Positions 4,014 to 63,925 of a stretch of 64,000 nucleotides of DNA are shown piece by piece. The translations under genes and the position numbers were made by a program. Within the stretch, counting starts at the first letter, position 1, and every line of letters starts with the position of its first letter. The notes under the pieces are model-generated. The model made no database searches. It saw only the letters and a list, made by a program, of their open reading frames with translations, and was not told the DNA's origin. Source of the stretch: Gari tellinella (Eukaryota > Mollusca > Bivalvia > Cardiida > Psammobiidae). The stretch is taken from the NCBI GenBank assembly GCA_922989275.2, contig OV277870.1, positions 58,925,079 to 58,989,078 of the forward strand, given 5' to 3'.

Positions 4014-4264
4014 TACAGTGGAGAATCTGTTATTCTTTCCCGATAAACGCGTTTACGCTAAAACTATTTTTTCTTTTACAAACAGTTTGGAGCCAGATTA
4101 GACGCCGGGTAACACGGCGTCTGATCTGGCTCCAAACTGTTTGCCACCAATATAAACATGAGTTATCAGAATTGTCCCAAAATTGTTCTTTTCTACGTGT
4201 TATTACTTTGCGTTTGCGTTTCGTTTGCGTTTAAACGGGAAAGAATAACAGATTCTCCACTGTA
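4014..4264 (+). mobile_element. Family A MITE, full copy
   Basis: 251 bp bounded by TACAGTGGAG and CTCCACTGTA, with 28-bp terminal inverted repeats through TTCTTTCCC. TA dinucleotide ends plus CAGTG suggest a Tc1/mariner-type non-autonomous element. The central HP1 hairpin has arms GGAGCCAGAT and GACGCCGGGTAA. Both hairpin arms here carry the AGATCAG form, so the stem is nearly perfect. The sequence has no transposase. Confidence 0.92.
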
Positions 4265-4553
4265 GCATTGATATTACAGACATAAAAAATAGAAAGCATA
4301 ACAACAATAAATAGCTGGTAATAATTACATTGTAAGTCGTTATTTACACTGTAAAAACTGACGGTGCTGTAAAATAGAGAAACGGGTTTTGGCACAAGTA
4401 CGAATCATATCTGGGTTTGAAAACAGAAAACAAAACTTATCATAACCACACAAAGTATGGAACGTTGGATTAAGATTATGCGCCCTTGTAAGCAAACTTG
4501 TCTTATATCTACATAAATGGGACAGTTCAATATAACATGTACCTCGTTTTCAA

Positions 4554-4676
4554 CACAGGGCCCCGACACGATTGCTCTTTGAGAGAAAAAAAATCGTCAG
4601 AAGGTATATAAAGAGTCTCTATATATACCTTCTGACGATTTTTTCTCTCAAAAAGCAATCGTGTCGGGGCCCTGTG
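4554..4676. repeat. Long near-perfect palindrome
   Basis: Arms of about 55 bp (CACAGGGCCCCGACACGAT outermost, CAGAAGGTATATA innermost) around a short spacer AAAGAGTCTC. Differences between arms are one-base indels in A/T runs. Not matched elsewhere in the window. Confidence 0.85.
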
Positions 4677-5439
4677 ATTTTCAATGGAACCATCATCACA
4701 AAAGCAACACATCCTAGACCTCTCTGGCAAACCCTCATAACGACCAGTTTCAATTCTAATAAAGGCGACGCCCAGTCGAAATTTACAAAACGCCAAAACA
4801 ATGTCGGGGTGGCAATAACACTTTACAATACTGTTCTGTGATAATCAGTTTTAAATAATTTATATACATGTACTCTTAATTTGTTACGACCATTGTCAGA
4901 GGGATCCACAGTTTTGTTTATCCTGTTGGACCATTTGTTAACATATGTATTAGATATCTTACATGTATCCTCAACATCATTTGCGAACGAACGAGATATA
5001 GCGTTAGTCAAACTAGAAATCATTTGAAAATCATTAGCGTCGTACCTTTTGACATTAAACCCAGTTCCTACATGAGTTACCAGCCTTTCTATATGCCCAA
5101 AGTGACACTCGTAGATATTATGGGTCTAATTTTGAGTTCTGGGATTGTACCGTCGACCAGTGCCTGCCTGATGGATCTTGATTGAAAACAGCTTGCGGGG
5201 GGGTCTGTGGTATAATTCTTGGACAGCTGTCACCATATTTATTCATGCCACATTTAACTCATTTTAAAATATTGATAAATTATTTTATATAATCTTGGTA
5301 ATTACATTGAAAGAATTTCCCTTGTTCGGAATTTGTTTCCACGCAAATCCATAAGGTATCTTGTTTATTTTTAGATCTAAACGTAGTTATATGTCTTTTC
5401 TCGCTTTGTATGTACATTAATAAATTTTATGTAATTTCA

Positions 5440-5544
5440 TGTGAAGCGGTTTTAAACGCACAACCCCTGTGTGAAAAGAGCGCTATATAAATCAGGTATA
5501 ATAATAATAATAACAATAATAATAATAATCATAATAATAATAAT
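5440..5544 (+). repeat. Retroposon-like 3' tail and (AAT)n microsatellite
   Basis: GCGCTATATAAAT followed by an AAT/ATA repeat at 5498-5544. This word before a trinucleotide tail is common at 3' ends of invertebrate SINE/LINE copies; the body was not identified. Confidence 0.5.
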
Positions 5545-5639
5545 TTACAATATAAAATTATATAAATGACCATTTGAATACTGGAAAATATTTCCGAAAA
5601 ATAGTGATTCAAAAATAAAGTTTTGATCTAGATCAGAGG

Positions 5640-5870
5640 TGGACTTACTCGGGGTATTTTTTGTTTCTCCACTGAAAAAAATAGCTTCACTTTATACAGC
5701 CATGCGTATTTGCCATATGAAATATTTTCTTAATGTTAGCAGGTGGTAGCTAAAAGCATGTTGAAAGTAAAGCCGAATGCGCCTTAAGGCGCATTCAGCT
5801 TTACTTTTAAGCTGCTTTAAGTGTTCACCTGTCATGAAAACTAGAAACATGCTACTAGATGAAGGGTCCA
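5640..5870 (-). mobile_element. Family C MITE, degraded
   Basis: The HP2 core (AAAGTAAAGCCGAATGCGCC and its inverse) is at 5763-5815, flanked by C-type words (CACTTTATACAGCCATG, AAACTAGAAACATGCTA). TTAA ends are lost. Confidence 0.7.
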
Positions 5871-6296
5871 GACGCCATAAGTATAAAGCAGACGAAATGT
5901 ATTCACTGTAACGTTGTTGTCACATTATTTCACTCCTGAAATAGATCGAAGTTTCTAGAAGTTCGAGGTTAAATTTGTATCAAAATATCACGTGCGTTAT
6001 ATAACATTTATCCTGCCGAATATTTCGTCTGCTTCTGTTTTTGAAATTGTCATCTGAGAACTTTTAAATTAAGGTTTTTGCATCATTTCTAGATCGAAGA
6101 AACTTAAAAGTGAGTATCAAACAGTTTTAATCCAGATCAGACGCCGCGTGACAACGTTCTAGTCGTGATCGGCAAGACAAAGTTTAATTGTTTTGTGTAT
6201 CCAACGATAGGTTCAAATCGTTTGAACGTGCGTGTCTCTTATCTAGAACACGGAAACATCAATGTTGAAATTACCTGTATCTGTTCTTATTTAACT

Positions 6297-6618
6297 ACAG
6301 TGGATAAAACGTTTTTCAGTACTAATTAACGCGTTCATGCTGACAATAATTCCTCTCCAAACAGTTTCGAACCAGATCAGATGCTGGGTAACTCCGCGCT
6401 GTTTGCTCTTAGATTGAAATAAATTATGTAGACACCTGACGAGACGTTGCGTAACCTGCTTGCTATATATATAGCAAGCAGGTTACGCAACGTCTCGTCA
6501 GGTGTCTACATAAATATAGCAAGCAGGTTACGCAACGTCCATAATCTATTTCAATATATATATTTTAGCATATATACACGTTTATAGGGAAAGAATGATG
6601 TTTTCTCCCACTGCTCTA
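6297..6618 (+). mobile_element. Family A2 relic carrying a palindromic insert
   Basis: Left end CAGTGGATAAAACG near 6297, hairpin half CAAACAGTTTCGAACC, right end GGGAAAGAATGATGTTTTCTCC. The right hairpin arm is replaced by the palindrome at 6424-6539. Confidence 0.65.
6424..6539. repeat. Palindrome with a third partial arm
   Basis: Arms GTAGACACCTGACGAGACG and GCGTAACCTGCTTGCTATA invert at 6472. After the right arm the terminal word TATAGCAAGCAGGTTACGCA occurs once more (6515-6537), so one segment is present three times. Confidence 0.8.
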
Positions 6619-6756
6619 TACTGTTTACATCGACGTTTTAATACAAAAGTGGAAACGAAAGGGGTGGAGAAGCTTGTTACATTTAGGAATGTCTTTTTTT
6701 GTAATCGACGATATTTCACTTTTTGCAAACATAATCTATAGTAAGCATGCTTTTTA

Positions 6757-8137
6757 GCTCACCTGAGCTAGCTCAGGATGAGCTTTTGCAATCCTTGAAT
6801 GTCCGGCGTCCGTCGTGCGTCGTCAACAATTTTAGTGTTTACACTCTAGAGGCCACAATATTTATCCAATCTTTCTCAAACTTGCTCAGATGGTATTTTG
6901 CCAAAAGAATTCGGATGAGTTCGATTATGGTTGAAATCAGACAAATAGGTCATGAATTATATACCTTTGAACTGCTGAAAATGCCATATTTAACAGTGTT
7001 TACACTCTAGAGGCCACAGTATTTATCCAATCTTTCTAAAACTTGCCCAGATGGTATATGACCATAAGAGTTCAGATGAGTTCGATTTTGGTTGAAATCG
7101 GACAAATAGATCAAAAGTTATCTTCCTTTGAATTGCTGAAAATGCCATATTTAACGATGTTTACACTCTAAAGGCCACAGTATTTATCCAATCTTTCTTA
7201 AACTTGCCCAGATTGTATACATGACCATAAGAGTTCGGATTAGTTCGATTTTGGTTGGAATCGGACAAATAGATCGAGAGTTATTTACCTTTGAATTGCT
7301 GAAAATGCCATATTTAACAGTGTTTACACTCTAGAGGCCACAATTTTAATCCAATCTATCTCAAACCTGCTCAGATTGTAAATGACTATAAGAGTTCAAG
7401 TGAGTTTGATTATGGCTTAAATCAGACTAATAGGTCGAGAGTTATCCACCTTTGAATTGCTGAAAATGCCATATTTAACGATGTTTACACTCTAGAAGTC
7501 ACAAATTTTATTCAATCTTTCTCAAACTTACTCAGATTGTATATTACCATAAGACTTCGCATGAGTTCAATTATGGTTGTAATCGGATTAATAGGTCAAA
7601 AGTTATCGACCTTTGAATTGCTGAAATTGATATATTTAACAGTGTTTACGCTCTAGAGGCCACAATATTTATCCAAGCTCTCTCAAACTTGCCAATATTG
7701 TATATGGCCATAGAGTTTCATATGAGGTTGATTATGGTTGGAATCGGACAAATAGATCAAGAGATATCTACCTTTGAATTGCTGAAAATGCCATATTTTA
7801 CAGCGTTTACACTCTTGCAACTACAGTTTTCAATGGATTTTGATTATACTTGTACACAAAGGATGTAGCTATATGTTCTGGAGAGAGAGCAATTATTGTT
7901 GAAATGTAATCATTGTGGCAATAGTTATCTGCCCTTGATATACTTTGAAATGCTAGAAAAAGGCTTCATTTCAGTATTGTTTAGGCTCTAGTTATCTGCC
8001 TTTGATGTACTCTTCTATACTACAGTAGGTCGACAAACTTGAATGGATTTAGAATAAAACGGGTGAAATTCAAAGGTAAAGCTATCAGGCTTCATTACAA
8101 ATGGTGAGCGATATCAGGGCCTTCAGGCCCTCTTGTA
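6757..8137 (+). repeat. 161-bp tandem repeat inside a TCACCTGAGC repeat element
   Basis: Begins AGCTCACCTGAGCTAGCTCA, then GTCCGGCGTCCGTCG, and ends GATATCAGGGCCTTCAGG. Units start at 6835, 6996, 7157, 7320, 7481, 7642 and 7803, so the period is 161 bp. Each unit has TTTACACTCTAGAGGCCACA and TTTGAATTGCTGAAAATGCC. Elements with this start, CCGTC-rich head and ACTCTAGAGGCCA units are widespread in bivalve genomes as I know them. Not coding. Confidence 0.9.
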
Positions 8138-8274
8138 TAATGTACCGGCACTCGACATAACGGAATTTTCCGCATCCTAGACAAAAAACAATTGGGAACA
8201 AAAATAGTATCGTTATTGTTATTGTTTTAATTTGATACAAACTCGTTTAAATGTATCAGGAACTTTCTATATTG

Positions 8275-8768
8275 TTTGCTCACCTGAGCAAAACTCATAG
8301 TTAGCTTTTGTGGTCCTTGGGTCGTTCTTTGTCAACGGTTTTAGTGTTTACACCCTATTTATCCATTTTTTCTCAAATTTGCTCAAAATTTATATTCATG
8401 AACAAAAGTTCTCGTACGTTCTTATCTCTTCAAATTTGAATGGATTTGGGTTAAACACAATTATTGTTAACTACAGTGGAGAATCTGTTATTCTTTCCCG
8501 TTTAAACGCAAACGTACGCAAACGCAAAACACTAAAACGTAGAAAAGAACAACTTTTGGACAATTCTAATATTTCATGTTTATCTTGGTGGCAAACAGTT
8601 TGGAGCCTGGTTACCCGACGTCTGATCTGGCTTCAAACTGTTTGCACTACAAATAATAGTTTTAGCGTAAACGCGTTTATTGGGAAAGAATAACAGATTC
8701 TCCGCTGTATATCAGGTTCAATTACCAAGGATGAGCGATATTAATGCATTCAGTGCTCTCTTGTTTTT
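8275..8768 (+). repeat. Second, shorter TCACCTGAGC element, interrupted by family A
   Basis: Starts GCTCACCTGAGC and ends GATGAGCGATATTAATGCATTCAGTGCTCTC, the same order as the neighbouring longer copy, with only one unit. An A copy splits it at 8472-8709. Confidence 0.75.
8472..8709 (-). mobile_element. Family A MITE nested in the TCACCTGAGC element
   Basis: Full ends TACAGTGG and GCTGTA, HP1 partly deleted on its left arm (GAGCCTGGTTACCC). Flanks rejoin as AACTATATCAGGTTC, parallel to GCTATCAGGCTTC in the intact repeat near 8085. Confidence 0.9.
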
Positions 8769-8781
8769 ATCCTACATTAGT

Positions 8782-8999
8782 AATTAAAAAATAGATACGG
8801 TTGTTTATTTATTTATAATACTATGTCATACCGTAGATATTCAATACTATAGATACGAGCTTATTAATAATGATGCCTTTATGATATGGTATTGTTTGTT
8901 TATACTCTTCTCGTTATCCTATGTATATATCGCCAATGTTATGGCAACAGACATGTATATGTTATGCAAAATAAATATATTTAATTTAATTGAATTGAA
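8782..8999 (+). mobile_element. Short retroposon insertion with 21-bp target duplication
   Basis: The 21-bp word TTGTTTTTATC / CTACATTAGT occurs at 8761-8781 and again at 9000-9020. The 218 bp between them end in ATATTTAATTTAATTGAATTG, an AT-rich tail. Long duplication plus tail fits target-primed reverse transcription of a truncated LINE or SINE. No coding motif is visible. Confidence 0.8.
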
Positions 9000-9292
9000 T
9001 TGTTTTTATCCTACATTAGTTGTAGCATTCCCTTAGTCAACGCAAATATTCTTAGCCGATGCACATATACTTATATTACACGTACACCATTGAGGCAAGA
9101 TCGGAGATTTCCTAAATAAGGCCTCTGTTCAGGTTCTGCGCTGTTTGTAACTTTGCATTAAATGTTACAAAAATCTCTCAAAATAGTCAAAAACGGACTA
9201 AACGTTACTGGTCTATTTGAAGTCCTATGGGTTTGGTTAAAGACAATTTCAAATATTGAAGAAAGAAATCAGTATAACAACAAAGTCATTTA

Positions 9293-9525
9293 ACCCCTTT
9301 ACATGTACCCCATAGTCTGTTTCTAGTTTTGAAGATAGTTGGCCACTTAAAGCAAATTGAACAAAAGCAGAATATTCATGTGAGTTCTGCTTTACTTTTA
9401 ACCTGCTGTACGCTGCAATCTGCTACATGTGCATGAAGGATACAAAACGGATTATTGTGATGCATATTCCTCTCTGTTTAAAATATAACTATTTTCTTCA
9501 GAGGAGGAATTAAATTTAGGCATAA
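9293..9525 (+). mobile_element. Family C MITE, degraded
   Basis: AACCCCTTTACATGTACCCC at the left, a diverged HP2 with GCAGAATATTCATGTGAGTT in the loop, and ATTTTCTTCAGAGGAGGAA at the right. Confidence 0.7.
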
Positions 9526-9555
9526 ATTAAGATCATGCACCAATACAGTCTTTGT

Positions 9556-9804
9556 TACAGTGGAGAATCTGTTATTCTTTCCCAATAAACGCGTTTATGC
9601 TAAAACTATTTTTTTCATTGCAAACAGTTGGAGCCAGATCAGACGCCGGGTAACCCGGCGTCTGATCAGGCTCCAAACTGTTTGCCACCAAGATAAACAA
9701 GAATTATCAGAATTGTCCAAAAGTTATTATTTTCTACGTTTTAGATATTTGCGTTTGCGTACGTTTGCGTTTAAACGGGAAAGAATAACAGATTCTCCAC
9801 TGTA
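9556..9804 (+). mobile_element. Family A MITE, full copy
   Basis: Standard ends. One base is missing in the left hairpin arm (CAGTTGGAGCC). Both strands are open by chance through most of it. Confidence 0.92.
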
Positions 9805-9819
9805 CCTCTTTCCTCCCTA

Positions 9820-10055
9820 AAAGCTCAAATGGACAATTTTAGTTTTCAATTTAGTCTAGTACATTTTTACTTTTTAGAGTCGATATTTACAATATATATC
9901 AAACAGTGTTGACCCTAATCAGGGGGCTCCTTAAGGAGCCCTCTGACCAGGGCCTACACTGTTTGCATAAAGACAAGTGTACCCCTCACAGGTATCCTGT
10001 TTGCAAATGACGCATATATGCATGACTAGGATTCAAAGAGTTAAGAGAGTTGACA
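9820..10055 (+). mobile_element. Family G element with hairpin
   Basis: Hairpin 9900-9965 shares the outer AACAGTGTTGACCCT / CTACACTGTTTG arms of HP1, but the core is GGGGGCTCC / GGAGCCC instead of GACGCCG. Followed by TGACGCATATATGCATGACTA, a second short palindrome, and AGAGTTAAG, possibly the TTAA end. Confidence 0.6.
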
Positions 10056-10143
10056 TTTAAAAATGAAATATTTTGTTTTCAGTTGTGTCCTTGACAGTTT
10101 GTTTGTATTGATTTTCCGCGCATTACCTATCTTTTAAATGTTT

Positions 10144-10393: not shown

Positions 10394-10399
10394 CATGTA

Positions 10400-10839: not shown

Positions 10840-10905
10840 TAATGGGGTTGAGGAGTAATGTTTCCTCCCTACACTGTAAACCCAAGTGTTCCAAGATAGA
10901 ACATG

Positions 10906-11155
10906 TACAGTGGAGAATCTGTTATTCTTTCCCAATAAACGCGTTTACGCTAAAACTATTATTTGCAGTGCAAACAGTTTGGAGCCAGATCAGACGCCGG
11001 GTAACCCGGCGTCTGATCAGGCTCCAAACTGTTTGCCACCAATATAAACATGACTTATCAGAATTGTCCAAAAACTGTTCTTTTCTACGTTTTAGTACTT
11101 TGCGTTTGCGTACGTTTGCGTTTAAACGGGAAAGAATAACAGATTCTCCACTGTA
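10906..11155 (+). mobile_element. Family A MITE, full copy, near consensus
   Basis: 250 bp, both 28-bp TIRs intact. HP1 shows the usual single A/A mismatch next to GATCAG that gives the stem a polarity. Confidence 0.94.
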
Positions 11156-12413: not shown

Positions 12414-12785
12414 TACAGTATACAACGGCCCCAACAACGATTCCCTCCTTACAACAATGATTGCCGCTGTTCCCAAAACAAGATAAATTTTGTCTAACGC
12501 TTTCACTGCTGCAATATCGTCTGCTTTAAACTGTCGTATGCTCTCAAAGTTATATGCATTTGACATTTTGAGAGAAGAAACATAAATGCGATTTTACAAA
12601 CAGTTGAACCCAGATCAGACGCCGCAATATACGTCTTTTCTGGGTTCAAACTGTTTGCAAATGTAAACCATGTCATATTCCGCACTCGAAGTTTATTAAT
12701 TGTCCCTCCCTATAACAACCCACTCCGAACAACACACAATACCTATGTCTCCCAATGAGTTTTGTTGTAGAGAGGGATCACTGTA
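12414..12785 (+). mobile_element. Family B MITE
   Basis: Left end is eroded (TACAGTATACAACGGCCCC); right end GAGAGGGATCACTGTA is intact. Inside: ATATCGTCTGCTTTAAACTG (the GTCGTCTGC-box segment) and an HP1 whose core reads CGCAATATACG, with arms GAACCCAGATC / CTGGGTTC. Confidence 0.85.
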
Positions 12786-20061: not shown

Positions 20062-20240
20062 TAACTCATTCACTGCCAATGGTGACAACTTTAAAGGGGA
20101 CCGTGTAAGCAATTTGGATCCAAACTGTGTTACACTCGTATCCATATTGTCTTTACTCAAAACAGCCCTAAATCTTGAAACAAATATTGAAGGCGACACT
20201 ACATGTATCTATACAAACGATAGTTTGGCGGTGCGGTTAA
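20062..20240 (+). mobile_element. D-like relic
   Basis: TTAACTCATTCACTGCCAAT to TTTGGCGGTGCGGTTAA, TTAA-type ends with only half a hairpin (TTGGATCCAAACTG). Shares its right TTAA with the next element. Confidence 0.5.
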
Positions 20241-20577
20241 CCCTTTCATGGTCAAATTATTCGGGAGATTTTTACCCCTTCACCGCTTTATTGTCGTCTG
20301 CTTCTATTTTGTTGTCTGCAATGTCGTTTCAAAGTTAAAAAATAAGGCAGTATGACTGAACGAATTTCAAAACGAGTGTCAAACAGTTCGGATCCTGATG
20401 AGGCGGCGTCTGGTCAGGGTTAAAACTGTTTGCCTCTAATTAGTTTAAAATAACGTCAGTTATACTGCCTTTAATCTAACTTTGAAATGAAATTGCAGAC
20501 AACAATATTGAAGCAGACGACAATGTGGCAGTGAAGGGGTAAACCACTCACGATAAATTTGATCACGAAAGGGTTAA
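20237..20577. mobile_element. Family D MITE
   Basis: 341 bp with TTAACCCTTTCATGGTCAAA and its inverse ending GAAAGGGTTAA. A second inverted pair lies inside (TACCCCTTCACCGC / GCAGTGAAGGGGTAA). Contains GTCGTCTGC boxes on both sides and HP1 at 20379-20434 with the core shortened to GAGGCGGCGTC. TTAA ends suggest a piggyBac-type non-autonomous element. Confidence 0.88.
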
Positions 20578-21122: not shown

Positions 21123-21292
21123 GCAACCAATCAACGAACAAGAGTAGTTTTCAAATAGCTGTTGCCCTGCACTTAACAGTCGCTTGCCATTTTAGTTCAC
21201 GAACCATCAAAATGCACCACGTATCACTTGCACGGCATTGTTATAACATTGTACATGTACAATCGCGTCTTTTAAGGCGACTTGGTAGGGTG

Positions 21293-23138: not shown

Positions 23139-23495
23139 TACAGCGTTCCCTCTCTACAACGGCCCTCCCAACAACGATTCCTTCCTTATGTAAAACGACA
23201 TTTGCCACAGTTCCCTAAACAAGACAATTATGTCTAACGCTTTTACTTCTGCAATATCATCTGCTTAAAATTGTCGTCTGCTGTTTTTCTAAAAGTAACA
23301 TAATTGACAGAATTTTTTTTAATGACGAGTGACAAACAGCTTGAATCCAGATCAGACACCGCTTTACGCGGCGTCTGGTCTGGATTTAAGCTGTTTGCAA
23401 GTGTAGTCAATTTCCCTACCTATAACGACTCCCTCTGAACAACGCACACAATGCTTGTCTCCCATTGGATGTTGTTGTAGAGAGGGAACGCTGTA
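23139..23495 (+). mobile_element. Family B MITE, first of a tandem pair
   Basis: TACAGCGTTCCCTCTCTACA to GAGAGGGAACGCTGTA, a clean TIR pair. HP1 at 23335-23399 has arms AGCTTGAATCCAGATC / CTGGATTTAAGCTG and core CCGCTTTACGCGG. The TIR start CAGTG/CAGCG with TA resembles mariner-type MITEs. Confidence 0.93.
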
Positions 23496-23863
23496 CTGTT
23501 ATCCCTTCCTACAACGACACTCCGAAAATAATTCCCTCCTTACAACAACGGTTGTCGATATTCCCCAAACAAAAATAATGATCTGTATAACGCTTTCTTT
23601 GATGCAATATCGTCCGCTAAACATTGTCGTTTGCTTTTTTTCTTTCTCAAAGTTAGGAAACATAAAAACAAGAGAAAAGAGATTGAACCACAATCAGACG
23701 CCGCGTAACGCGGCGTCTAATCTGGATTCAAACTGTTTGCAAATGTAAGCTAAGTCATGTTTAGCACTCTAAGGGTATTAATTTCCCCTCCCTATAACAA
23801 CTCCCTTCGAACAACACAAACATCGTTGTCTACCATTAGGTGTTGTTGAAATGGAACATTGTA
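23494..23863 (+). mobile_element. Family B MITE, second of a tandem pair
   Basis: Starts TACTGTTATCCCTTCCTACA, sharing the TA of its neighbour, and ends GAACATTGTA. The outer left hairpin arm is lost (GAGATTGAACCACAATC) while the core and right arm remain. Confidence 0.88.
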
Positions 23864-25616: not shown

Positions 25617-25857
25617 AGGGGCCCGTTTAATAAAACTTTGTACGACAAAATTAATGTTGTCGTAAAACAGATTACAAAAATCTCAATTATTATTTATTTC
25701 TCCATCTAATCCTGTCTTGTTACATCTCTTTGGAATCGTCTTTTCAAGACGATTCCAAAAAGATGTCACACGACAGGATTAGATAGAGAAATCAGAAATG
25801 TATAATAAAGTTTTCACTTACGATCGTTTTTGTCGTACGATGTTTTATGAGAAGGGT
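25617..25857. mobile_element. Inverted-repeat element J, copy 1
   Basis: GGGGCCCGTTTAATAAAACT to GTTTTATGAGAAGGG. A central palindrome GGAATCGTCTTTTCAAGACG is nested in longer arms (CTAATCCTGTCTTGT). About 85 percent like the copy at 28202. Confidence 0.85.
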
Positions 25858-25933
25858 CGTCAGTTGACGAGAAGGGTAGATCGCCTAACGTAGAGTACCG
25901 ACATTGACCCTAGTCACCCTACCCCATTACGAT

Positions 25934-27976: not shown

Positions 27977-28201
27977 AGAACGCTAGGCACAAAATGAGTA
28001 AAACCGCTTTGTCAAGAATAAGATTTGATATTTCTAGAGACGATTAACAGTTACTGTTTTATGGAGATTGGAAATGTTATATAATACAGACAGATCCTAT
28101 AATATTTCTGTATATTCGTATCGATATACTAAAAACTCAAATGTACATGTATATAACGACTGACAAGCGACAATGTTATCATACATGTATGTTACAAACA
28201 A

Positions 28202-28444
28202 GGGCCCCGTTTCATAAAACATTTTACGACAAATGTTGTCGTAAGTCAGATTATAAAACTCTCAATTATTATTTATTTCTCCATCTAATCCTGTCTTGTG
28301 ATATCTATTTGGAATCGTCTTGAAAAGACGATTCCAAAAAGATGTCACAAGACAGGATTAGATAGAGAAATCACAAATTAAATGTATTTTAAAGTTTTGA
28401 CTTACGACAACATTTGTCGTAAGAAGTTTTATGAAACGGGCCCC
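28202..28444. mobile_element. Inverted-repeat element J, copy 2
   Basis: GGGCCCCGTTTCATAAAAC and inverse GTTTTATGAAACGGGCCCC, better preserved than copy 1. ACGACAAATGTTGTCGTAAG near each end forms subterminal palindromes. Confidence 0.9.
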
Positions 28445-28513
28445 TGAACAATAAGGGTTTGGCTAAGTACTTGAGCTGTAGTGATAACATCGTCACATTG
28501 AAGCTACACAAGT

Positions 28514-28983
28514 CGAGAAGATGATTTTATTTCCCAAATAAACGCGTTTATGCTAAAACAGTGTTGTCAATTGCTTAACCCAGATCATACACCGGGTGAC
28601 CTGGCTTCTTAATTTCCAAACTGTTTGTCAACCCGATTAAAGTAAAGAATGTATTTTGTCCAAACGTTATGATTTTTCTTTATATTTTCATATCACGTTT
28701 GCGTTTAGATTCGTTTAACTCTTTCACTGGCAAAATTGTCGTGAAACGTTTACCCCTTCACCGTTTCATTGTCGTGTGCTTCAATTTTGTTGTCTGCAAT
28801 GTCGTTCCAAAGTTAAAAAAATAAGGCGATATGACTGAAGAAATTTCAAAACGAGTGTCAAACAGTTTGTATCCTGACCAGACGCCGCGTTACGCGGCGT
28901 CTGGCCAGGATCCAAACTGTTTGCAAGCGCGCTTTTAAGCGTCATTGAGAGTGAAAGGGAAAGTATAGCATCTTCTACACTGT
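28514..28983 (+). mobile_element. A-like relic split by a family D insertion
   Basis: CCCAAATAAACGCGTTTATG, CACCGGGTGACC, CGTTTGCGTTTAGATTCG at left; GGGAAAGTATAGCATCTTCT to CACTGTG at right of the D copy. Confidence 0.7.
28715..28957 (+). mobile_element. Family D MITE nested in the A-like relic
   Basis: TTAACTCTTTCACTGGCAAA to GAGAGTGAAAGGG; the right TTAA is missing. HP1 at 28859-28923 is complete: GTATCCTGACCAGACGCCG, core GCGTTACGC, return CGTCTGGCCAGGATCC. This is a good reference copy for the D interior. Confidence 0.88.
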
Positions 28984-30575: not shown

Positions 30576-30690
30576 GCATTCTGATAAGAGGGCCCCTATT
30601 GGCGCCTCTGGTCTGAATATACATTGTTTGCATAATCTAAGTGTACTCTTCATAGGTACAATGTGTCTCATTACTAGGGCTCTATAGATT
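30576..30690 (+). mobile_element. Family G fragment
   Basis: CTGATAAGAGGGCCCCTATT, GCCTCTGGTCTGAATATACA and TGTTTGCATAATCTAAGTG match the right half of G at 25180-25280. It lies directly against K. Confidence 0.5.
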
Positions 30691-30902
30691 AACCCTTAGC
30701 CTGCCACTCACGACTATAGCTCCATATGCAAACAGCTTGGATCCGGATGAGACGCCGAGTAACTCGGCGTCTCATCCGGATCCAAGCTGTTTGACACTCG
30801 GACAACATTTTCAGCAATTTTGAGCAACTTTGAAGCACTTTGAAACTTGAAGCAGACGAGAAATATAGCAGACGACAATTTATTTGGCGGGCTAAGGGTT
30901 AA
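30689..30902 (+). mobile_element. Family E MITE, copy 1
   Basis: 214 bp, TTAACCCTTAGCC and GGCTAAGGGTTAA ends. Perfect HP1: GCTTGGATCCGGATGAGACG, core GAGTAACTC, exact return. Right half has GAAGCAGACGAGAAATATAG and AGCAGACGACAATTTA (inverted GTCGTCTGC boxes). The hairpin is perfect and the TTAA intact, so it is young. Confidence 0.95.
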
Positions 30903-30940: not shown

Positions 30941-31000
30941 TTAACCCTTAGCCCGCTAAATAAATGGAGCTATAGTCGTGAGTGGCAGGCTAAGGGTTAA
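30941..31000 (-). mobile_element. 60-bp internal-deletion derivative of family E
   Basis: TTAA ends on both sides, only terminal 23 and 37 bp kept, inverted relative to copy 1 which lies 38 bp away. It carries the CCACTCACG and GCTCCAT variants found in copy 1 but not in the copy at 31586. Confidence 0.93.
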
Positions 31001-31585: not shown

Positions 31586-31799
31586 TTAACCCTTAGCCTG
31601 CCAGTCACGACTATAGCTGCATATGCAAACAGCTTGGATCCGGATGAGACGCCGAGTAACTCGGCGTCTCATCCGGATCCAAGCTGTTTGACACTCGGAA
31701 AACATTTTCAGCAATTTTGAGCAACTTTGAAGCACTTTGAAACTTGAAGCAGACGAGAAATGTAGCAGACGACAATTTATTTGGCGGGCTAAGGGTTAA
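31586..31799 (+). mobile_element. Family E MITE, copy 2
   Basis: 214 bp; I count four substitutions against copy 1 (98 percent identity). Clean TTAA on both sides. Confidence 0.95.
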
Positions 31800-42890: not shown

Positions 42891-43253
42891 TACAGTGTTC
42901 CCTCCCTACAACGTCCCTCCCAACAACAATTCCCTCCTGTTTGCCGCTGTTCCCCAAACAAAACAAATACGTCTAATACCCATTGCTGCGATATCGTCTG
43001 CATAAAATTGTCGTCTGCTATTCTTCTCTCAAAGTTACATATTAGTAGACATTTTGTCAGAAGAAATATGATGACGAGTGACAAACAGCTTGAATCTAGA
43101 TCAGACGCCGCGTAACGCGGCGTCTGATCTTGATTCAAGCTGTTTGCAAATGGAAGCCAAGTCTTGATTTTCACTCCCCTATAACAACTCCCTCCTAACA
43201 ACACAAACACTATTTGTCTCCCATTGAATGATGTTGTAGAGAGAGAGCACTGA
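42891..43253 (+). mobile_element. Family B MITE
   Basis: TACAGTGTTCCCTCCCTACA to GAGAGAGAGCACTGA (last base changed). Perfect HP1 core at 43082-43146 (GAATCTAGATCAGACGCCG, GCGTAACGC), arms nearly perfect. Confidence 0.93.
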
Positions 43254-49648: not shown

Positions 49649-50098
49649 TACAGTAGAGAAGATGATATTCTTTCCCAATAAACGATTTTGTGCTTAACCC
49701 ATTTTATGCGGGATACACGTTTAGGTGTACCTTTAGGCAAACATTGTGGGGCCTGATCTGAGATCAAAACTGTTTGCAGCTAAGTCAATACTCTATCAGA
49801 AACTGCTGAAATATTTTGCAAATATTTGAGTTATACCCGCTGCAGACGACATTTTAAAATGGCCGCCAAATATTACCCAGCATACAATGGGTTAAACAAT
49901 TACAATTATTTCCACTGCAAACTGTCTTGAGCCTTGTCAGACACCGGGTTATCCGGTGTCCGATCAGGTTCGAAACGGTTTAACACTCAGATTAAAATTA
50001 CAAATGTTAAACAGTTGTACTTCTTTTTCCTTTTTATTACATTGTGTTTGCGTTTCGGTTGCGTTTAGACGGGAAAGAATAACGTATTCTTTACTTTA
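49649..50098 (+). mobile_element. Family A2 MITE split by element P
   Basis: TACAGTAGAGAAGATGATAT, CCCAATAAACGATTTTG, [P], ATTATTTCCACTGCAAACTG, HP1 with core CACCGGGTTATCCGGTG, right end ACGTATTCTTTACTTTA. Confidence 0.82.
49694..49895. mobile_element. Element P: 202-bp TTAA MITE nested in A2
   Basis: TTAACCCATTTTATGC and AATGGGTTAA ends. Contains GCAGACGACATTTTAAAATG (inverted GTCGTCTGC box) and a rudimentary HP1 (GGGGCCTGATCTGAGATCAA, AACTGTTTGCAG). Flanks rejoin as GTGC-TTAA-ACAATTA, matching GCTAAAACTATTA in A. Confidence 0.85.
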
Positions 50099-56407: not shown

Positions 56408-56636
56408 TTAACCCATTTATACCCAGTGGATTCTTCCATGTTGATATATTGGATTAGTCCATATTTTATCAAAGCGATGCCTGGGCAAAATTTTCATTTT
56501 CATTTTGCTTTATATTGAAATTCCTATCAGCAAACAGTGTAGACTCTGATCAGACGCCGCATTATGCGGCGTCTGATCAGAGTCTACACTGTTTGACTAT
56601 GTTCCATATATGGGATCGTGGGCACAAATGGTTTAA
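56408..56636 (+). mobile_element. Family F MITE, copy 2
   Basis: TTAACCCATTTATACCCAGT to GGGCACAAATGGTTTAA. Perfect HP1 variant at 56531-56595: CAGTGTAGACTCTGATCAG, core GCATTATGC, exact return. Confidence 0.93.
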
Positions 56637-57416: not shown

Positions 57417-57566
57417 GGAAACTCTAGTGAGTATTTGTACAAACAGTTTCGTTCTTGGTTACGCGGCGTTTCATCAGGGCCACTGTGGTCCTCTTTTTAA
57501 AAGATATCTTTTTGCAAAATATAAATAGGAAACAATAACGCAATAGAAACGTTTAAACTATGTATA

Positions 57567-58270
57567 TGTCACGGGGTCAGCCGTTCCATGGTTTGTCAAT
57601 GTTCATGTTTCTATGTTATATGTCTTTTATATGTGTCATACTCATGTGTAGATCCTTCATCTTCATTTAGATCCTTCATTCTCATGTAGATCTTTCATAT
57701 TCATGTTTAGATCCTTCATTTTCATGTAGACCCTTTCATTTTCATATGTAGATCCGCCCATGCTCACATTCATTTAGCTCACCCCATAGTCATGTAGATC
57801 CGCCCATGCTCATATAGGTATATCTAGATTCATGGTCATATACTTACTAACCAATCATTTACTTTCAAGTTCAACTAACCCTTAACCTTTTCGTATAAAA
57901 TAGCCACACCAACTTGCACGTGCGCACTTTGAATTATAAAGATCGTTACTCACGTACGTCTTGAGTTTGAATTGTATGCGCCTCAAATTATTTTCAGGTA
58001 AAGTGACTGTTTTATTACTTTAACATATTGATAAGAGCTATTATTTCATTCATCTATTCATGTATGTTCGTCGCATTTTCATAATATTTCTGTATCTTCT
58101 ATGTATTAATTGGCACTTTGAATTATAAAGATCGTTACTCACGTACGTCTTGAGTTTGAATTGTATGCGCCTCAAATTATTTTCAGGCGCTACAAAGGTC
58201 CCTTTTGTGCCAGACCCCTATTAGTCGAACCCCGGACAGAGACAGAGTTATGCATCTTTGCCCGGCGACA
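57567..58270 (+). repeat. 5' LTR
   Basis: TGTCACGGGGTCAGCCG to GCCCGGCGACA. Differs from the 3' LTR only at 58190 (C versus A). Contains a series of TAGATCCTTCATTTTCATG-like units at 57645-57800 and a 75-bp duplication at 57924-57998 and 58113-58187. Confidence 0.96.
57894..57903 (+). promoter_or_regulatory. Putative LTR TATA box
   Basis: TATAAAATAG in the 5' LTR. Transcription would start about 30 bp on, close to the first copy of the 75-bp duplication. The same box is in the 3' LTR at 59935-59944. Confidence 0.55.
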
Positions 58271-58290
58271 TTTTGGTGGCCAGTGTGAAT
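58271..58290 (+). other. Primer-binding-site region
   Basis: TTTTGGTGGCCAGTGTGAAT directly after the 5' LTR, where the tRNA primer pairs. I did not match it to a tRNA. Confidence 0.4.
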
Positions 58291-58291
58291 T

Positions 58292-58738
58292 TTGGGCGAT
58301 GGTCATAAGAGACGGTATGACCTTCGGGTAAGAGAGACCAAGTTGGAACCGGGTGACAAGGTCTTGGTGCGAAAAGTAGGTCTTCAGGGTAAGAACAAGC
58401 TTGCAGACAGGTGGGACAAGGAAGTTTATGTGGTCATCAGTCAACCTAACCCGGATGTCCCAGTTTTCCATGTCAGGCCTGAGCATAGGAGATGTGCCCC
58501 TAAGACCCTACACAGAAACCTGTTGCTACCAATTATGGGGTTGCCAGCTTCAGCTCGTGTTGAACCCAAGAGACCAGTGGCATCTCCAGTGGCATCTCCG
58601 GTGGCATCTGTGAACACCATTGCTCTGGATCCTGAACCTCCCGTGCAGAAGTATGTCATACCTCAAAGGCGGTTAAACCCGTATGCTTCTGCATTCCGTT
58701 CACGTCATTGGCAGACTTCCAGGATAAAGGCATTTTAG
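58292..58738 (+). CDS. Integrase C-terminal remnant (Ty3/gypsy pol)
   Basis: 148 codons. RYDLRVRETKLEPGDKVLVR, GKNKLADRWDKEVYVV, PDVPVFHVRPE and TLHRNLLLPI form the chromo-like/GPY-type tail that follows the integrase core in gypsy elements; binding the element's cDNA or chromatin is its usual role. The catalytic DDE core is missing, so this cannot integrate DNA. The Met lies 21 bp after the LTR and is probably fortuitous. A SPVASPVASPVAS repeat follows near residue 92-105. The frame is intact, probably because the copy is young. Confidence 0.75.
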   Translation: MGDGHKRRYDLRVRETKLEPGDKVLVRKVGLQGKNKLADRWDKEVYVVISQPNPDVPVFHVRPEHRRCAPKTLHRNLLLPIMGLPASARVEPKRPVASPVASPVASVNTIALDPEPPVQKYVIPQRRLNPYASAFRSRHWQTSRIKAF

Positions 58739-59593
58739 AAGAATGAAATCAGATTGAAAGTTCTATAGTGTGCAGTACACACTTTAGTTTATAATATAAT
58801 TCAGCTGTTGATAGTTCTCTAGTGTGCAGTACACACTTAGATTTTATAGTTCTGTTGAGAACTACAGAATTTTTTTTTATCTACTGTTATTTTATAGCTC
58901 ACAACTAGATTAGAGTTTTGAGATTTGTTTCTGATTTCTTTGAATCAGACACATATAGATGTATTGCCTGTATATTATTAAGCATGTTTAGGTAATTGAT
59001 TTAGTGTTCAGTTATGTAGTTGTTTGCTTTACAGCTTACTTTACCCTATAGCAGTTAGCTCAACAGTTTTGCAGTTTAAGCTTACAGCTTATTTTGCAGT
59101 TTAGCAGTTTAAGCTTTACAGTTTACTTTGCAGTTTGATAGTTTAAGCTTAACAGTATACCTTACAGTTTTGCAGTTGGCTTAGTAGCTTACTTTAGAGT
59201 TTAGCAGCTTGCTTATCATATTACTTTGTAGTTTATCCAAGACTTAAGATGCAGTGAATAGACATAAGTTTGATGGATACTTAAGCCTAACAGCTTCTTT
59301 TTCCAGTGTGTATTGTTTTTCTATAGTCTCATATATTTATTGGTGTAGTTTTATTCTACAAAAGTATATTCTTAAGCTGGCACTAAGTTGATGTCTTTGA
59401 ATTGCATTGTTTGAAGATTTATTTTGGAATGGTTTTTGACTTTGTCATCTTCAATTGGATGAGGTTGCGGATTGCAAGTCGTTCATGTTTGTGTTGCACT
59501 TAATGGTGAACAAATATTTGACGGCAGTTGGCCTTAGGCCTCTTGATTGAAATGCATTCATATGTTTTTTTAAATGTCGGGACGACATTTCCC
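58739..59593 (+). other. Non-coding internal region of the LTR element
   Basis: AGTTCTATAGTGTGCAGTAC and AGTTCTCTAGTGTGCAGTAC repeat at 58759 and 58813 around the palindrome GTGTGCAGTACACAC. At 59030-59225 CAGTTTAGCAGTTTAAGCTT-like words repeat many times. No ORF. Confidence 0.6.
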
Positions 59594-59607
59594 GAAGAGG
59601 GGGAGGA
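59594..59607 (+). other. Polypurine tract
   Basis: GAAGAGGGGGAGGA immediately before the 3' LTR, the plus-strand priming site of LTR elements. Confidence 0.88.
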
Positions 59608-60310
59608 TGTCACGGGGTCAGCCGTTCCATGGTTTGTCAATGTTCATGTTTCTATGTTATATGTCTTTTATATGTGTCATACTCATGTGTAGATCCTTCA
59701 TCTTCATTTAGATCCTTCATTCTCATGTAGATCTTTCATATTCATGTTTAGATCCTTCATTTTCATGTAGACCCTTTCATTTTCATATGTAGATCCGCCC
59801 ATGCTCACATTCATTTAGCTCACCCCATAGTCATGTAGATCCGCCCATGCTCATATAGGTATATCTAGATTCATGGTCATATACTTACTAACCAATCATT
59901 TACTTTCAAGTTCAACTAACCCTTAACCTTTTCGTATAAAATAGCCACACCAACTTGCACGTGCGCACTTTGAATTATAAAGATCGTTACTCACGTACGT
60001 CTTGAGTTTGAATTGTATGCGCCTCAAATTATTTTCAGGTAAAGTGACTGTTTTATTACTTTAACATATTGATAAGAGCTATTATTTCATTCATCTATTC
60101 ATGTATGTTCGTCGCATTTTCATAATATTTCTGTATCTTCTATGTATTAATTGGCACTTTGAATTATAAAGATCGTTACTCACGTACGTCTTGAGTTTGA
60201 ATTGTATGCGCCTCAAATTATTTTCAGGCGATACAAAGGTCCCTTTTGTGCCAGACCCCTATTAGTCGAACCCCGGACAGAGACAGAGTTATGCATCTTT
60301 GCCCGGCGAC

Positions 60311-60311
<1 letters not shown>
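59608..60311 (+). repeat. 3' LTR
   Basis: Same length as the 5' LTR; base 60231 is A where the 5' LTR has C. Confidence 0.96.
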
Positions 60312-60348
<37 letters not shown>

Positions 60349-60420
60349 GAGACTTTATTTAACGAGAGAACTCATTTTGTAAAGCCCAATCTTCCATGAG
60401 GCCCTCAACATCTATACAAG
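60312..60420 (-). repeat. (TAA)n microsatellite and retroposon tail
   Basis: (TAA)12-13 to 60349, then GAGACTTTATTTAACGAGAG and TTTTGTAAAGCCCAATCTTC. Read on the minus strand this is a 3' end with a TTA tail. The LTR element landed at its edge. Confidence 0.6.
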
Positions 60421-60422
60421 TA

Positions 60423-60882
60423 CCACTATGGTAAAATCTCTCTTTCACGAACACTAAACAGAAGGCTTAATGAGTGCATAGCCCATGTGACAGCTTAAAG
60501 CAAGGTGACGGAAAAACAGAACTGTTTTACCGTCACCTTACTTTAAGCATAATGCAATGTGACAGTAAAACAGATCGCGCCTAAAAGGAGCTTTCTGTTT
60601 TACCGTCACGTTACTTTAAGCAGTCGCCTGTCGTTAACACCTACAGTGGAGAATCTGTTATTCTTTCCCGATAAACGCGTTTACGCTAAAACTATTCAGT
60701 TTTTCTTTTACAAACAGTTTGCCACCAAGATAGACATGAACTATCAGAATTGTCCAAAAGTTGTTCTTTTCTACGTTTTAGCGCTGTGCGTTTGCGTACG
60801 TTTGCGTTTAAACGGGAAAGAATAACAGATTCTCCACTGTAGCAGAAAACACAATGTTATGGTCGTAATAAAGAGACTTTAC
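60423..60882 (+). mobile_element. Family M MITE with two HP2 hairpins, split by family A
   Basis: Left ACTATGGTAAAATCTCTCTT, right TGGTCGTAATAAAGAGACTT to TTACAG, both blurred M ends. Two HP2-type hairpins follow each other: 60490-60548 (GCTTAAAGCAAGGTGACGG, loop ACTG) and 60552-60625 (AATGTGACAGTAAAACAG, centre CCTAAAAGG). Confidence 0.72.
60642..60841 (+). mobile_element. Family A MITE without its hairpin, nested in M
   Basis: Intact TIRs. TTTCTTTTACAAACAG joins TTTGCCACCAAGATAG, so HP1 has collapsed to the single word CAAACAGTTTG. 200 bp. Confidence 0.93.
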
Positions 60883-60923
60883 AGAATTCACTTCATTACA
60901 GACGCGAATTAGTATATTGGTTA

Positions 60924-61226
60924 TACAGTGCTCCCTCCCTACAACGGCCCTCCCAACAACGACTCCCTCCTTACAACGACCCTTGCCGCTGTTCCTAAAA
61001 CAAGACAGTTATGTCAAACCTTTTCATGGCTGCAATATCGTCTGCTTTAATTTGTCGTCTGCTGTTTTTATCTAAGTAACATAATTATTAGACATTTAAA
61101 CAAAAAATAACTTAATGACGAGTTACAAACAGCTTGAATCCAGATCCCTGCCTATAACGACTCTCTCCGAACACGAACACAATATTTGTCTCTCATTGGA
61201 TGTCGTTGTAGAGAGGGGGTGCTGTA
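60924..61226 (+). mobile_element. Family B MITE, hairpin lost
   Basis: TACAGTGCTCCCTCCCTACA to GAGAGGGGGTGCTGTA. Only AACAGCTTGAATCCAGATC of HP1 remains. ATATCGTCTGCTTTAATTTG and GTCGTCTGCTG boxes are intact. Confidence 0.93.
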
Positions 61227-61473
61227 CAGTGGAGAACACGTTATTCTTCCCGTTTAAACGCAAACGTACGCAAACGCAAAGCACTAAAACGTAGAAAAGA
61301 ACAACTTTTGGACGATTCTGGTATTTCATGTTTATCTTGGTGGCAAACAGTTTCGAGCCTGATCAGACGCCGGGTAACCCGGCGTCTGATCTGGCTCCAA
61401 ACTGTTTGCACTGGAAATAATAGTTTCAGCGTAAACGCGTTTATTGGGAAAGAATAACGTTTTCTCCACTGTA
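61225..61473 (-). mobile_element. Family A MITE with hybrid termini
   Basis: Shares its left TA with the preceding B. Left TIR GAGAACACGTTATTC, right AACGTTTTCTCCACTGTA (A2-like ends) with an A-like interior. Confidence 0.92.
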
Positions 61474-61647
61474 TATGGTTATAATAACTACTGTTATTGA
61501 TCTGTCGCTATGGTCATAATCAAGTACATGATGTGTACGTTGACCCCGTCAATACTATAATCTCGTCCGCTAGTACGATATAGCCCACCTTTAATGGTCA
61601 AATTAAGATTTACGTAATTCCAACGAGGGTTTAAAGGAGTTAGGGTT

Positions 61648-61712
61648 AAAACTGTTTGGATCTTAATCAGAATCCGAGTTACTCGGCGTCTGATCAGGAT
61701 CCAAACTGTTTT
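61648..61712. repeat. HP1 hairpin, D/E-type
   Basis: AAACTGTTTGGATCTTAATC, core GAGTTACTC, return CTGATCAGGATCCAAACTG. Surrounding element not delimited; TTAGGGTTAA precedes it. Confidence 0.78.
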
Positions 61713-61900
61713 TAAATTGTAGTGTACAGTCTGATTAAGGTGAGGGAGAGAGGTTAAGTGACGGATTGAAATACTGATATATTTATAGTTCAGCGTTTTA
61801 GTGAGTTCACACACGTGCGGATTCTTTATTGGATACTGTTTTAAAGCGGTCAGTAAAAAGTAATCTCCAAACATCGTTACAAGTACTAATGTATTTTTCT

Positions 61901-62185
61901 GGGGCTTAATTGTCACAGAGAATATTTTCTGTTGCCAAGAACTAGATCTAGTAATTATGTTTCGTTTGTCGTGTTTTTGTACCTCATGTTACTTATCTTA
62001 AATGTAATAAACTATAAAGAACTAAAAAGGAAGGCATGCCGGTGGTTTTGATCCCATGCGCTGTTTCGCAACGAATGAGAATAGACGAAATCTATCCCAG
62101 AAATAATCATCATCTCATCATCTCTCATCATTCATTGTCGCTATATTACCTATTTTGTGTCGCAGTGCCGTACATCTATCCTGAA
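61901..62185 (+). mobile_element. Retroposon-like repeat Q, copy 2
   Basis: GGGGCTTAATTGTCACAG, AACTAAAAAGGAAGG, TTTTGATCCCATGCGC, CATCATCTCATCATC, CTATTTTGTGTCGCAGTGCC, as at 14613. Confidence 0.6.
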
Positions 62186-62293
62186 ATAAGTTTGGTCAAG
62201 AAGACTCGTAAATGTATAACACTCAAAAGAAGTTCTATACATGTACATAGAAAAGTCACGCCCACTGCAAGAGGTTGTTTGTGAGTTATAGGT

Positions 62294-62544
62294 TACAGTT
62301 GAGGAACATTTTATTTTTACCATGCTGACGTAAACGAAACGTAAACGGAACGCAAACGCTTAGCAATTAGATAAGGGAAATGACAGCTTGTTGACAATTC
62401 TGACTATTTCATTTAATTTGAGTGGCAAACAGTTTGCAGCCTGATCAGACGCCGGGTTACCCGGCGTCTGATCTGGCTCCAAACTGTAATTGTTTCAGCA
62501 TATAAACGCGTTTATTTGGAAAGAATAATGTCTTCTCCACAATG
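62294..62544 (-). mobile_element. Family A2 MITE
   Basis: TACAGTTGAGGAACATTTTA to GTCTTCTCCACAATG; one hairpin arm cut at CAAACTGTAATTG. Confidence 0.82.
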
Positions 62545-62570
62545 CCGACTATTTTCCATGACAAGAATGA

Positions 62571-62820
62571 TACAGTAGAGAATGTGTTATTCTTTCCCAA
62601 TAAACGCGTTTACGCTAAAACTATTATTTGCAGTGCAAACAGTTTGGAGCCAGATCAGACGTCGGGTAACCCGGCGTCTGATCAGGCTCCAAACTGTTTG
62701 CCACCAAGATAAACATGAACTATCAGAATTGTCCAAAAGTTGTTCTGTTCTACGTTTTAGTGCTTTGCGTTTGCGTACGTTTGCGTTTCAACGGGAAAGA
62801 ATAACAGATTCTCCACTGTA
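62571..62820 (+). mobile_element. Family A MITE, full copy
   Basis: TACAGTAGAGAATGTGTTAT to CTCCACTGTA, HP1 intact. Confidence 0.93.
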
Positions 62821-62827
62821 TATTGCA

Positions 62828-63265
62828 GAAAACATTATTATTTCCACGTGTAAACGTAACTTTACGCCAATGCAGTACAATAAAATGTAAAAATGACAAA
62901 GAATAATATTTTCTGTATCAAGAATGTTACATTGGAGAAAACATTATTATTTCCACGTGTAAACGTAACTTTACGCCAATGCAGTACAATAAAATGTAAA
63001 AATGACAAAGAATAATATTTTCTGTATCAAGAATGTTACATTGGAGAAAACATTATTATTTCCACGTGTAAACGAAACTTTACGCCAATACAGTACAATA
63101 AAATGTAAAAATGACAAAGAATACTATTTTCTGCGACACGAATCATAAAGTGGGAAAGACGTTATCCTTTCTCGTTTAAACGAATTTAATGCAAACGAAA
63201 TGCAATAAAAATGTAAAAATGACAAAGAATAATATTTTCTGTGACAAGAAACTGACAGTGGGGAC
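62828..63265 (-). repeat. 109-bp tandem array built from an A2 terminus
   Basis: Units start at 62828, 62937, 63046, about 63154 and about 63258. Each begins GGAGAAAACATTATTATTTC and CACGTGTAAACG, i.e. the A2 left end, and ends AATGACAAAGAATAATATTT. The first three units differ by a few bases; later ones are diverged. Confidence 0.9.
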
Positions 63266-63512
63266 GACCTTTTCCCTTTTCGCAAAGCCAATGCAATCGA
63301 AAATGACAACCTTCTTGAAAATGTTGGTGATAAATTGACATCTGAGTAGCAAAGAGTATGGAGTCTTGCTGGAAAGTGGATTTAGCATAAGAATATTTTA
63401 TAAATCAATGATAGGCGCGTGTTACCAGACGTCTGATCAGGTTCTAAACCGATTGCAATTGTCTTAACCACTTCAATACAAGCGCGTTCATTAGGGAAAG
63501 ACGAATAAAGTT
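63251..63512 (-). mobile_element. A2-like relic at the end of the array
   Basis: GACAGTGGGGACGACCTTTT, GAGTAGCAAAGAGTATGGAG, CCAGACGTCTGATCAGGTTC, GCGCGTTCATTAGGGAAAG. The array seems to have grown from this element's left arm. Confidence 0.65.
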
Positions 63513-63691
63513 TTTGTTCACTTAATATTTATATACACTTTGCAGTATGTGTACACACTTTCATGAACTTGTTTGCTCTCTTTACCTAGCGGAAATATAG
63601 ATTATTATTAGTCTTTGACTGTCTGTTATAATTAAACCATCTGGAATTAAGGACAAACCCGTGATGCGATGCCACGTGTGTCATCATACAT

Positions 63692-63722
63692 ATGATAGAT
63701 AGATAAATATATATATATATAT
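63692..63722 (+). repeat. (GATA)n/(TA)n microsatellite
   Basis: GATAGATAGATAAATATATA followed by a TA run. Confidence 0.85.
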
Positions 63723-63769
63723 CTCACCTGAATCCGATACGTGAACAGACGAGACAGTGTTATTTTATA

Positions 63770-63925
63770 GTGTAAACGCGTTATTTTTCGCAGTTAAACA
63801 CTTCCGTCGCCGCAGTCATCTTAGCTCGAATGTGCCAAACAGTTTGGATCCAGATCAGACGCCGCGTTATCAGGATCCAAACTGTTTGGTACTCGTGTCG
63901 GTTTTTCTCAAGTCATGCTGCCTTA
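63770..63925. mobile_element. HP1-bearing fragment
   Basis: TAAACGCGTTATTTTTCGCA resembles an A arm, but the hairpin at 63836-63889 is D/B-like (GTTTGGATCCAGATCAGACG, core GCGTTA, one inner arm deleted). A hybrid or two overlapping relics. Confidence 0.55.

Follow-up and report, generated by a model that had tools for sequence, protein, structure and literature searches.

How can a single hairpin occur inside miniature DNA transposons whose termini and target sites differ? The question is raised by a 64-kb stretch of the genome of the bivalve Gari tellinella (contig OV277870.1, positions 58,925,079 to 58,989,078; hereafter the window), in which a hairpin module of 65 nt, HP1, lies within several families of miniature inverted-repeat transposable elements (MITEs). 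An earlier note on this stretch described HP1 in families A and B with TA ends and in families D, E and F with TTAA ends, and suggested that the hairpin itself might move. We consider it about an even chance (probability roughly 0.5) that HP1 is a constrained, old hairpin module of miniature DNA transposons, itself non-autonomous and spread by descent together with nesting or capture. The occurrence of one hairpin module within elements of different termini and target rules was confirmed, and a third end type (GGGGCCCG, family K) was added to TTAA and TA. The family letters G, I, J, K, M and N are labels of this analysis, and L-numbers denote fetched loci.

Abundance of HP1 in the Genome

The genome searched comprised 1,597,604,326 bases in 80 contigs, of which the window is 64 kb. 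HP1 was present, at the coordinates previously given, at all five places cited for families A, B, D, E and F. Genome-wide, the pattern CAAACAG-N30-60-CTGTTTG, which is its own complement, occurred at 367,269 places, versus 1,004 for the reversed control. The arm pattern CAAACAG-N10-GATCAGA occurred 706,566 times (353,127 + 353,439), versus 23 times (6 + 17) for its control. This excess is far beyond chance.

Profile searches were run on a sample of 285,442 bases, which consisted of the window, 20 stretches of 10 kb picked by position, and seven loci fetched for HP1. An nhmmer profile built from 77 HP1 copies (both strands) found 243 places at E < 1e-3, and 0 places at E < 10 in the same sample reversed. 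Because the full sample includes the window and the seven HP1-selected loci, the fair density is given by the 137 places within the 200 kb picked by position, approximately one per 1.5 kb. A covariance-model search, which the earlier note had proposed for the whole genome, was run on 264 kb and gave 383 matches at E <= 0.01, both strands counted. HP1 is a real pattern and not an artefact.

The window had no match in Rfam at gathering scores and none in a tRNA search. A protein search with an open reading frame spanning HP1 as the query gave 14 candidates, none of which reached E <= 10. One exact pattern each, searched in viral and in prokaryote contigs, gave 0 occurrences of HP1.

Structure and Covariation of HP1

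The 65 nt of HP1 are laid out as CAAACAG, nine mostly variable positions, a further position that is often unpaired, and GAT(C/G)AGA, beyond which a paired tip of variable sequence leads to a short loop. The family consensuses are near-perfect palindromes. The parts constant across families were CAAACAG and GAT(C/G)AGA, at the fixed spacing found in the 706,566 arms (control 23). HP1 had been described as always running from CAAACAG to CTGTTTG with GACGCCG/CGGCGTC around the loop; CAAACAG was indeed constant, but the inner pair is replaced by GAGGGCTCC/GGAGCCCTC in the stem of family G and by GAGGACGCGC in that of family K. The HP1 consensuses of the families were 79% alike (28 pairs) versus 47% when shuffled, and the short arms beside HP1 were 45% alike versus 41% (45 pairs). 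Judged from these comparisons, HP1 is conserved across carriers whose other parts appear unrelated.

Covariation was analysed in an alignment (A1) of 20 chosen HP1 copies, 19 of them distinct, with the structure predicted from that alignment itself. In A1, 93.1% of cells pair. The number of two-sided compensatory cells was 59, compared with 14.6 ± 3.0 after shuffling (0 of 500 shuffles reached it) and 3 to 12 in slid controls. Two-sided compensation was also counted in 95 distinct 65-nt copies (188 versus 72.8 shuffled, maximum 89) and in 20 representatives below 80% identity (36 versus 14 shuffled, maximum 23). In A1, positions 8–12, 14, 15, 17, 21, 26, 31 and 32 had 2 to 7 two-sided changes each (four at position 21), positions 1 and 20 had one each, and positions 2–7, 13, 18, 19 and 22–24 had none. 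Since compensation spares the two blocks, part of the stem keeps its pairing while the two blocks keep their letters.

This pattern would suggest that HP1 has a function and that the hairpin has been under selection as the elements spread. The palindrome and the two fixed blocks may have been kept because elements with an intact hairpin spread better. The likeliest role of HP1 would be that of a cis signal, folded or double-arm DNA that is read by a transposase or a host factor.

TTAA-Ended Carriers

The following TTAA-type features were located in the window:
28715–28959, + strand: family D element, left end TTAACTCTTTCACTGGC, right end AGTGAAAGGG, right TTAA lost; HP1 at 28859–28923
30689–30902, + strand: family E element with TTAACCCTTAGCC ends; HP1 at 30729–30793; short arm 40 nt
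31586–31799, + strand: second E element; HP1 at 31626–31690
30941–31000, + strand: 60-bp E derivative with both E ends, without core or HP1
56408–56636, + strand: family F element with TTAA ends; HP1 at 56531–56595; short arm 41 nt
9900–9965, no strand assigned: HP1 belonging to family G, with the stem GGGGGCTCC/GGAGCCCTC; the right end AGAGTTAA of the element follows
20237–20577, no strand assigned: D-like TTAA element in which two long arms flank a shortened HP1 (20380–20432)

A group of families (D, E, F, G, I, J, M and others) is alike in layout and in having TTAA with CYC-type ends. The named copies have TTAA at both ends and inverted terminal repeats, as piggyBac-type MITEs do. Paired TTAA ends were found around 23 of 220 HP1 copies, versus 6 of 250 random control positions; the remainder are A, B, decayed or unpaired copies. 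The short arm of these 23 measured 40 or 41 nt in 12 copies, 49–50 nt in three, 78 nt in five, and another length in three. Of 334 flanks, 15 had the end motif TTAACNC at a distance of 40–44 nt from HP1, compared with 0.83 expected. Clustering by flanks, which the earlier note had proposed for all hits, was applied to 180 near-full HP1 copies and gave few groups, and 106 of 360 flanks were single.

The TTAA families had been taken as independent carriers. Because D, E and F have in common TTAA with CYC-type ends and a short arm of 40–41 nt, they are probably one lineage with diverging ends. HP1 would be the ancestral inner part of a large TTAA-ended, piggyBac-like MITE group, often at a kept distance from one end. 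Family D has a second, inner, decayed end that resembles the left remnant in family B described below (0 of 2000 shuffles as high); its likeness to D's own outer end was weak, with 62 of 2000 shuffles as high. The ends of TTAA elements may also have been replaced from outside.

Two other TTAA elements were observed. A family of approximately 250 bp with TTAACCCATTACCCCATA.. ends (L011:132-383 and 563-825, and similar copies in L008, L016, L017, L032 and L037) has no recognised HP1 in most of the copies listed and is a possible control group for an HP1 effect. A TTAA element at 49694–49895 of the window carries another type of hairpin, with a GATCTCAGATCAGGCCCC arm and the same general build as HP1.

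Family B as a Probable Composite

Three copies of family B were delimited in the window:
42891–43252, + strand: family B element bounded by CAG[TC]G..CCCTCC, with the right TA missing; it encloses remnants of a TTAA element and HP1 (43082–43146); right end approximate
23139–23495, + strand: second B element; HP1 at 23333–23397
23503–23863, + strand: B copy, left end approximate; HP1 at 23675–23739; nested right TTAA-type end GGGTATTAA at 23773–23781

The TA ends of family B have the form CAG[CT]GTTCCCTCC (CAG[TC]G..CCCTCC). On the reading of the listed copies, A and B have the TA target and inverted terminal repeats of Tc1/mariner-type MITEs. To the left of HP1, B copies contain (T)CTAACGCTTT.ACTGCTGCAATATCGTCTGC, which in two window copies reads CTAACGCTTT(T/C)ACT.CTGCAATATC.TCTGC, and one B left end in L022 (beside 9445) has TTTAACTCTTTTACTGCTGCA. 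Two window copies (those with HP1 at 23675–23739 and 12597–12657) have TTAA 42 nt to the right of the hairpin, followed by B's CCCTCC sequence. In comparison with a TTAA-ended copy, N (L024:6957), the left remnant of B scored above 2000 of 2000 shuffles, and the score of the right arm was reached by 1 of 2000. B and D fall into one flank group to the left of HP1.

Degraded TTAA-type ends lie on both sides of HP1 inside a TA element, which indicates nesting; that B is probably a TA element enclosing an HP1-bearing TTAA element is well supported. On this reading, a TTAA element with HP1 would have landed in a mariner-like element, and amplification of the resulting composite would have given rise to B; the remnants support this course. 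At L009:5784-5848 and its flanks, an old chimera was observed in which a TTAA-type D left half and a TA-type B right half are joined at HP1.

Families A and K

Two copies of family A, one of them with a collapsed hairpin, were delimited as follows:
10906–11155, + strand: family A element, TA-flanked, with CAGTGGAGAATCTGTTATTC terminal repeats; HP1 at 10971–11035 (65 nt)
60642–60841, + strand: A copy with HP1 reduced to CAAACAGTTTG, a deletion product that is among the commonest of HP1-less A copies

Family A has TA and CAGTGGAGAATCTG ends (CAGTGG), and the most frequent spacing, that of intact copies, was found in 44 of the 72 paired copies sampled. Family K is 242 bp long, has GGGGCCCG ends and carries the full HP1 template, with a stem that differs by paired changes. 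At least 40 K copies are 94–100% identical, scoring having covered the best 40 of 1,806 candidates. The four K copies that are cleanly readable showed no clear target duplication.

An arm profile was made from the 60 nt beside HP1 in B, D and I arms, with a cut at 5 bits. It was exceeded by 36 of 36 of its own members, and by none of the A (0/58 and 0/64), G (0/15 and 0/15) or F flanks (0/9 and 0/6). The statement that the flanks differ between families holds for A, F and G, and the flanks of A matched those of no other family. A and K may have taken up HP1 long ago by nesting or copying, the donor ends having since been lost.

Two palindromic elements of the window (25618–25880 and 28197–28447) have GGGGCCCG ends and a TAATCCTGTC..GACAGGATTA centre, and their outer arms are those of the HP1-bearing K. 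A perfect 90-bp palindrome at 6424–6513 (overlapping 48-nt arms, 100% complementary) adjoins A-like sequence. Elsewhere in the window, long open frames at 1422–2949 on the minus strand look like an endonuclease/reverse-transcriptase retroelement by eye.

Relation to piggyBac Transposases

The piggyBac family PF13843 gave 86 matches, many with open frames. Twelve piggyBac loci were fetched; ends were recognisable in three (L030, L032 and L035) and were not found in nine. Of these nine, six (L029, L031, L036, L037, L039 and L040) have an HP1-like stretch 3′ of the frame, weak in L036 and L040 (E 0.003) and part of a separate TTAA element in L029 and L037. The idea that HP1 belongs to the ends of autonomous piggyBac elements was rejected for the three clear-ended loci, where it is absent. 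Once the first 14 nt are passed, the short end of E, the only family compared, is similar to the left end of L035 (0.003; 3 of 1000 shuffles); its comparison with the right end gave 0.60, and the long end of E was like neither end of L035 (0.54 right, 0.96 left). In L032, a piggyBac (667–3369) with an open transposase frame is inserted in the loop TTAA of a G-type HP1, whose halves lie at 637–671 and 3363–3400.

Alternative Explanations

The movement of the hairpin itself, as suggested earlier, finds no support in these data and is improbable. HP1 would then be mobile (for example as single-stranded DNA, with no target duplication) and enter resident MITEs at GAGTG|CA-like sites. It does occur in elements of three end types, and its edge bases look alike by eye, with GTG before and CANNNG after in A, B, D, E and G, although F does not fit. 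Direct repeats at the HP1 edges were not above shuffles in 167 copies (2 or 4–9 nt identical in none, 3 nt in 1.2%), which counts against movement, although elements that move as single strands should leave no target duplication. The variants mostly sort by family: the nearest HP1 neighbour belonged to the same family at a rate of 0.93 versus 0.34 when shuffled, as measured on the 121 copies of the 167 that have a named family. Carriers free of HP1, which a moving hairpin should have left, were few. A copies with exact arms had a gap of 55–80 nt at 21,156 places and of 0–30 nt at 229 (controls 0). Among 100 listed of these 229, 68 keep a remnant of 11–12 nt (CAAACAGTTTG, CAAACTGTTTG) and two are nearly clean; such remnants are characteristic of deletions that join short repeats at the foot of the hairpin. 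The junction of the 60-bp core-less E at 30941–31000 was found at this one place in the genome, allowing up to 2 mismatches, versus 11,726 places at which the gap in E has the size of HP1. As the junction is unique (other short E gaps were not counted), deletion is likelier, and the candidate ancestor without HP1 was rejected. Both flanks were unclustered in 36 of 167 HP1 copies, and at least 5 of these 36 have the TTAA end motif 38–50 nt away, a point likewise against this reading. Somewhat less improbable, and at best tentative, is that HP1 is a spreading signal independent of the transposase, read by one shared factor and taken up repeatedly by MITEs with unrelated transposases, so that the hairpin and not the ends would be the unit of success. 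If this were true, the K-type outer arms, which occur with HP1 or with another palindrome, would be a case of module exchange.

End-to-end descent of all carriers from one element, with termini that merely diverged, was the case that the earlier note had named as refuting its proposal. It is unlikely for the whole set of carriers. The ends (TTAA and CYC-type) and the similar layout of the TTAA-ended families named above agree with it, and for D, E and F common ancestry is probable. A (TA, CAGTGG), B (TA, CAG[CT]G..CCCTCC) and K (GGGGCCCG) end differently; the flanks of A fail the arm profile (0/58, 0/64), B keeps TTAA-type ends inside its TA ends, and the outer arms of K also occur in two window elements with another centre. 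A different objection concerns the constraint. Template switching in quasi-palindromes copies changes from arm to arm, and mutation alone might keep the palindrome with no selection required. The near-perfect consensus hairpins, the paired changes and the hairpin-guided deletions that HP1 also undergoes are in keeping with this. Correction between arms alone would not spare two sequence blocks, as seen in the 19 distinct sequences of A1, and we regard mutation as a rather unlikely sole cause.

A constrained module spread by descent and by nesting or capture accounts better for these data, and several observations nevertheless speak against it. Mutational correction of palindromes could create covariation without selection. 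With the ends excluded, the TTAA short arms were weakly alike (51% versus 43% shuffled, 21 pairs), and the long arms of E scored 0 of 3 on the arm profile although they were in its build set; for these two reasons the single TTAA lineage rests on end type and spacing. Families I (5 copies) and J (2 copies) failed the nearest-neighbour family test, with 0.0 and 0.12. The comparison element for the B remnants, N, is a single copy, and no TTAA remnants were seen in A or K. HP1 was absent between the ends of L030, L032 and L035, and no transposase was tied to HP1 among the 12 loci.

Comparison with Known Systems

PiggyBac-type MITEs have a TTAA target and CCCTTT.. ends. The TTAA-ended carriers of HP1 resemble them in TTAA at both ends and CYC-type terminal repeats, and differ from the three piggyBac loci with paired ends in having HP1 between the ends. 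Palindromic MITEs such as MADE1 are hairpin-forming miniature elements in which the whole element is the hairpin. HP1 is also hairpin-forming; instead, it lies inside larger elements with other ends. Repetitive extragenic palindromic (REP) sequences are prokaryotic and tied to a single-strand transposase. Like HP1, bacterial REP sequences (PMC3733652) are numerous, short and palindromic, and carry a fixed tag at one of their ends.

MITEs are a considerable share of bivalve genomes according to PMC10294476, where they are not classified further and the word hairpin is absent. Words of the HP1 sequence or of an encoded peptide were found in no open-licence paper, and no paper on such a module stood out.

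The closest published case found is the V domain in MER6 (PMC6887750). There, the highly conserved domains (HCDs) of short interspersed nuclear elements (SINEs) are short conserved modules in non-autonomous elements of different origin, V being approximately 120 bp long. The V domain also lies inside the TA-flanked Tc1/mariner MITE MER6, which is explained as a composite of SINE and mariner, and module exchange and host advantage are proposed for HCDs. HCDs and HP1 are alike as modules common to non-autonomous elements of different origin, both of them found also in a TA-flanked MITE. They differ in that HCDs belong to SINEs (class I), whereas HP1 is a covarying 65-nt palindrome in MITEs of DNA transposons, with TTAA, TA and GGGGCCCG carriers and several hundred thousand places in one genome. 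It has long been asked how MITEs reach copy numbers in the hundreds of thousands, and for this question HP1 offers a concrete, testable cis element. HP1 would carry the concept of shared conserved domains over from SINEs to DNA transposons, and it is best filed as an extension of an existing concept, conserved modules in non-autonomous elements, rather than as an established new kind of mobile hairpin.

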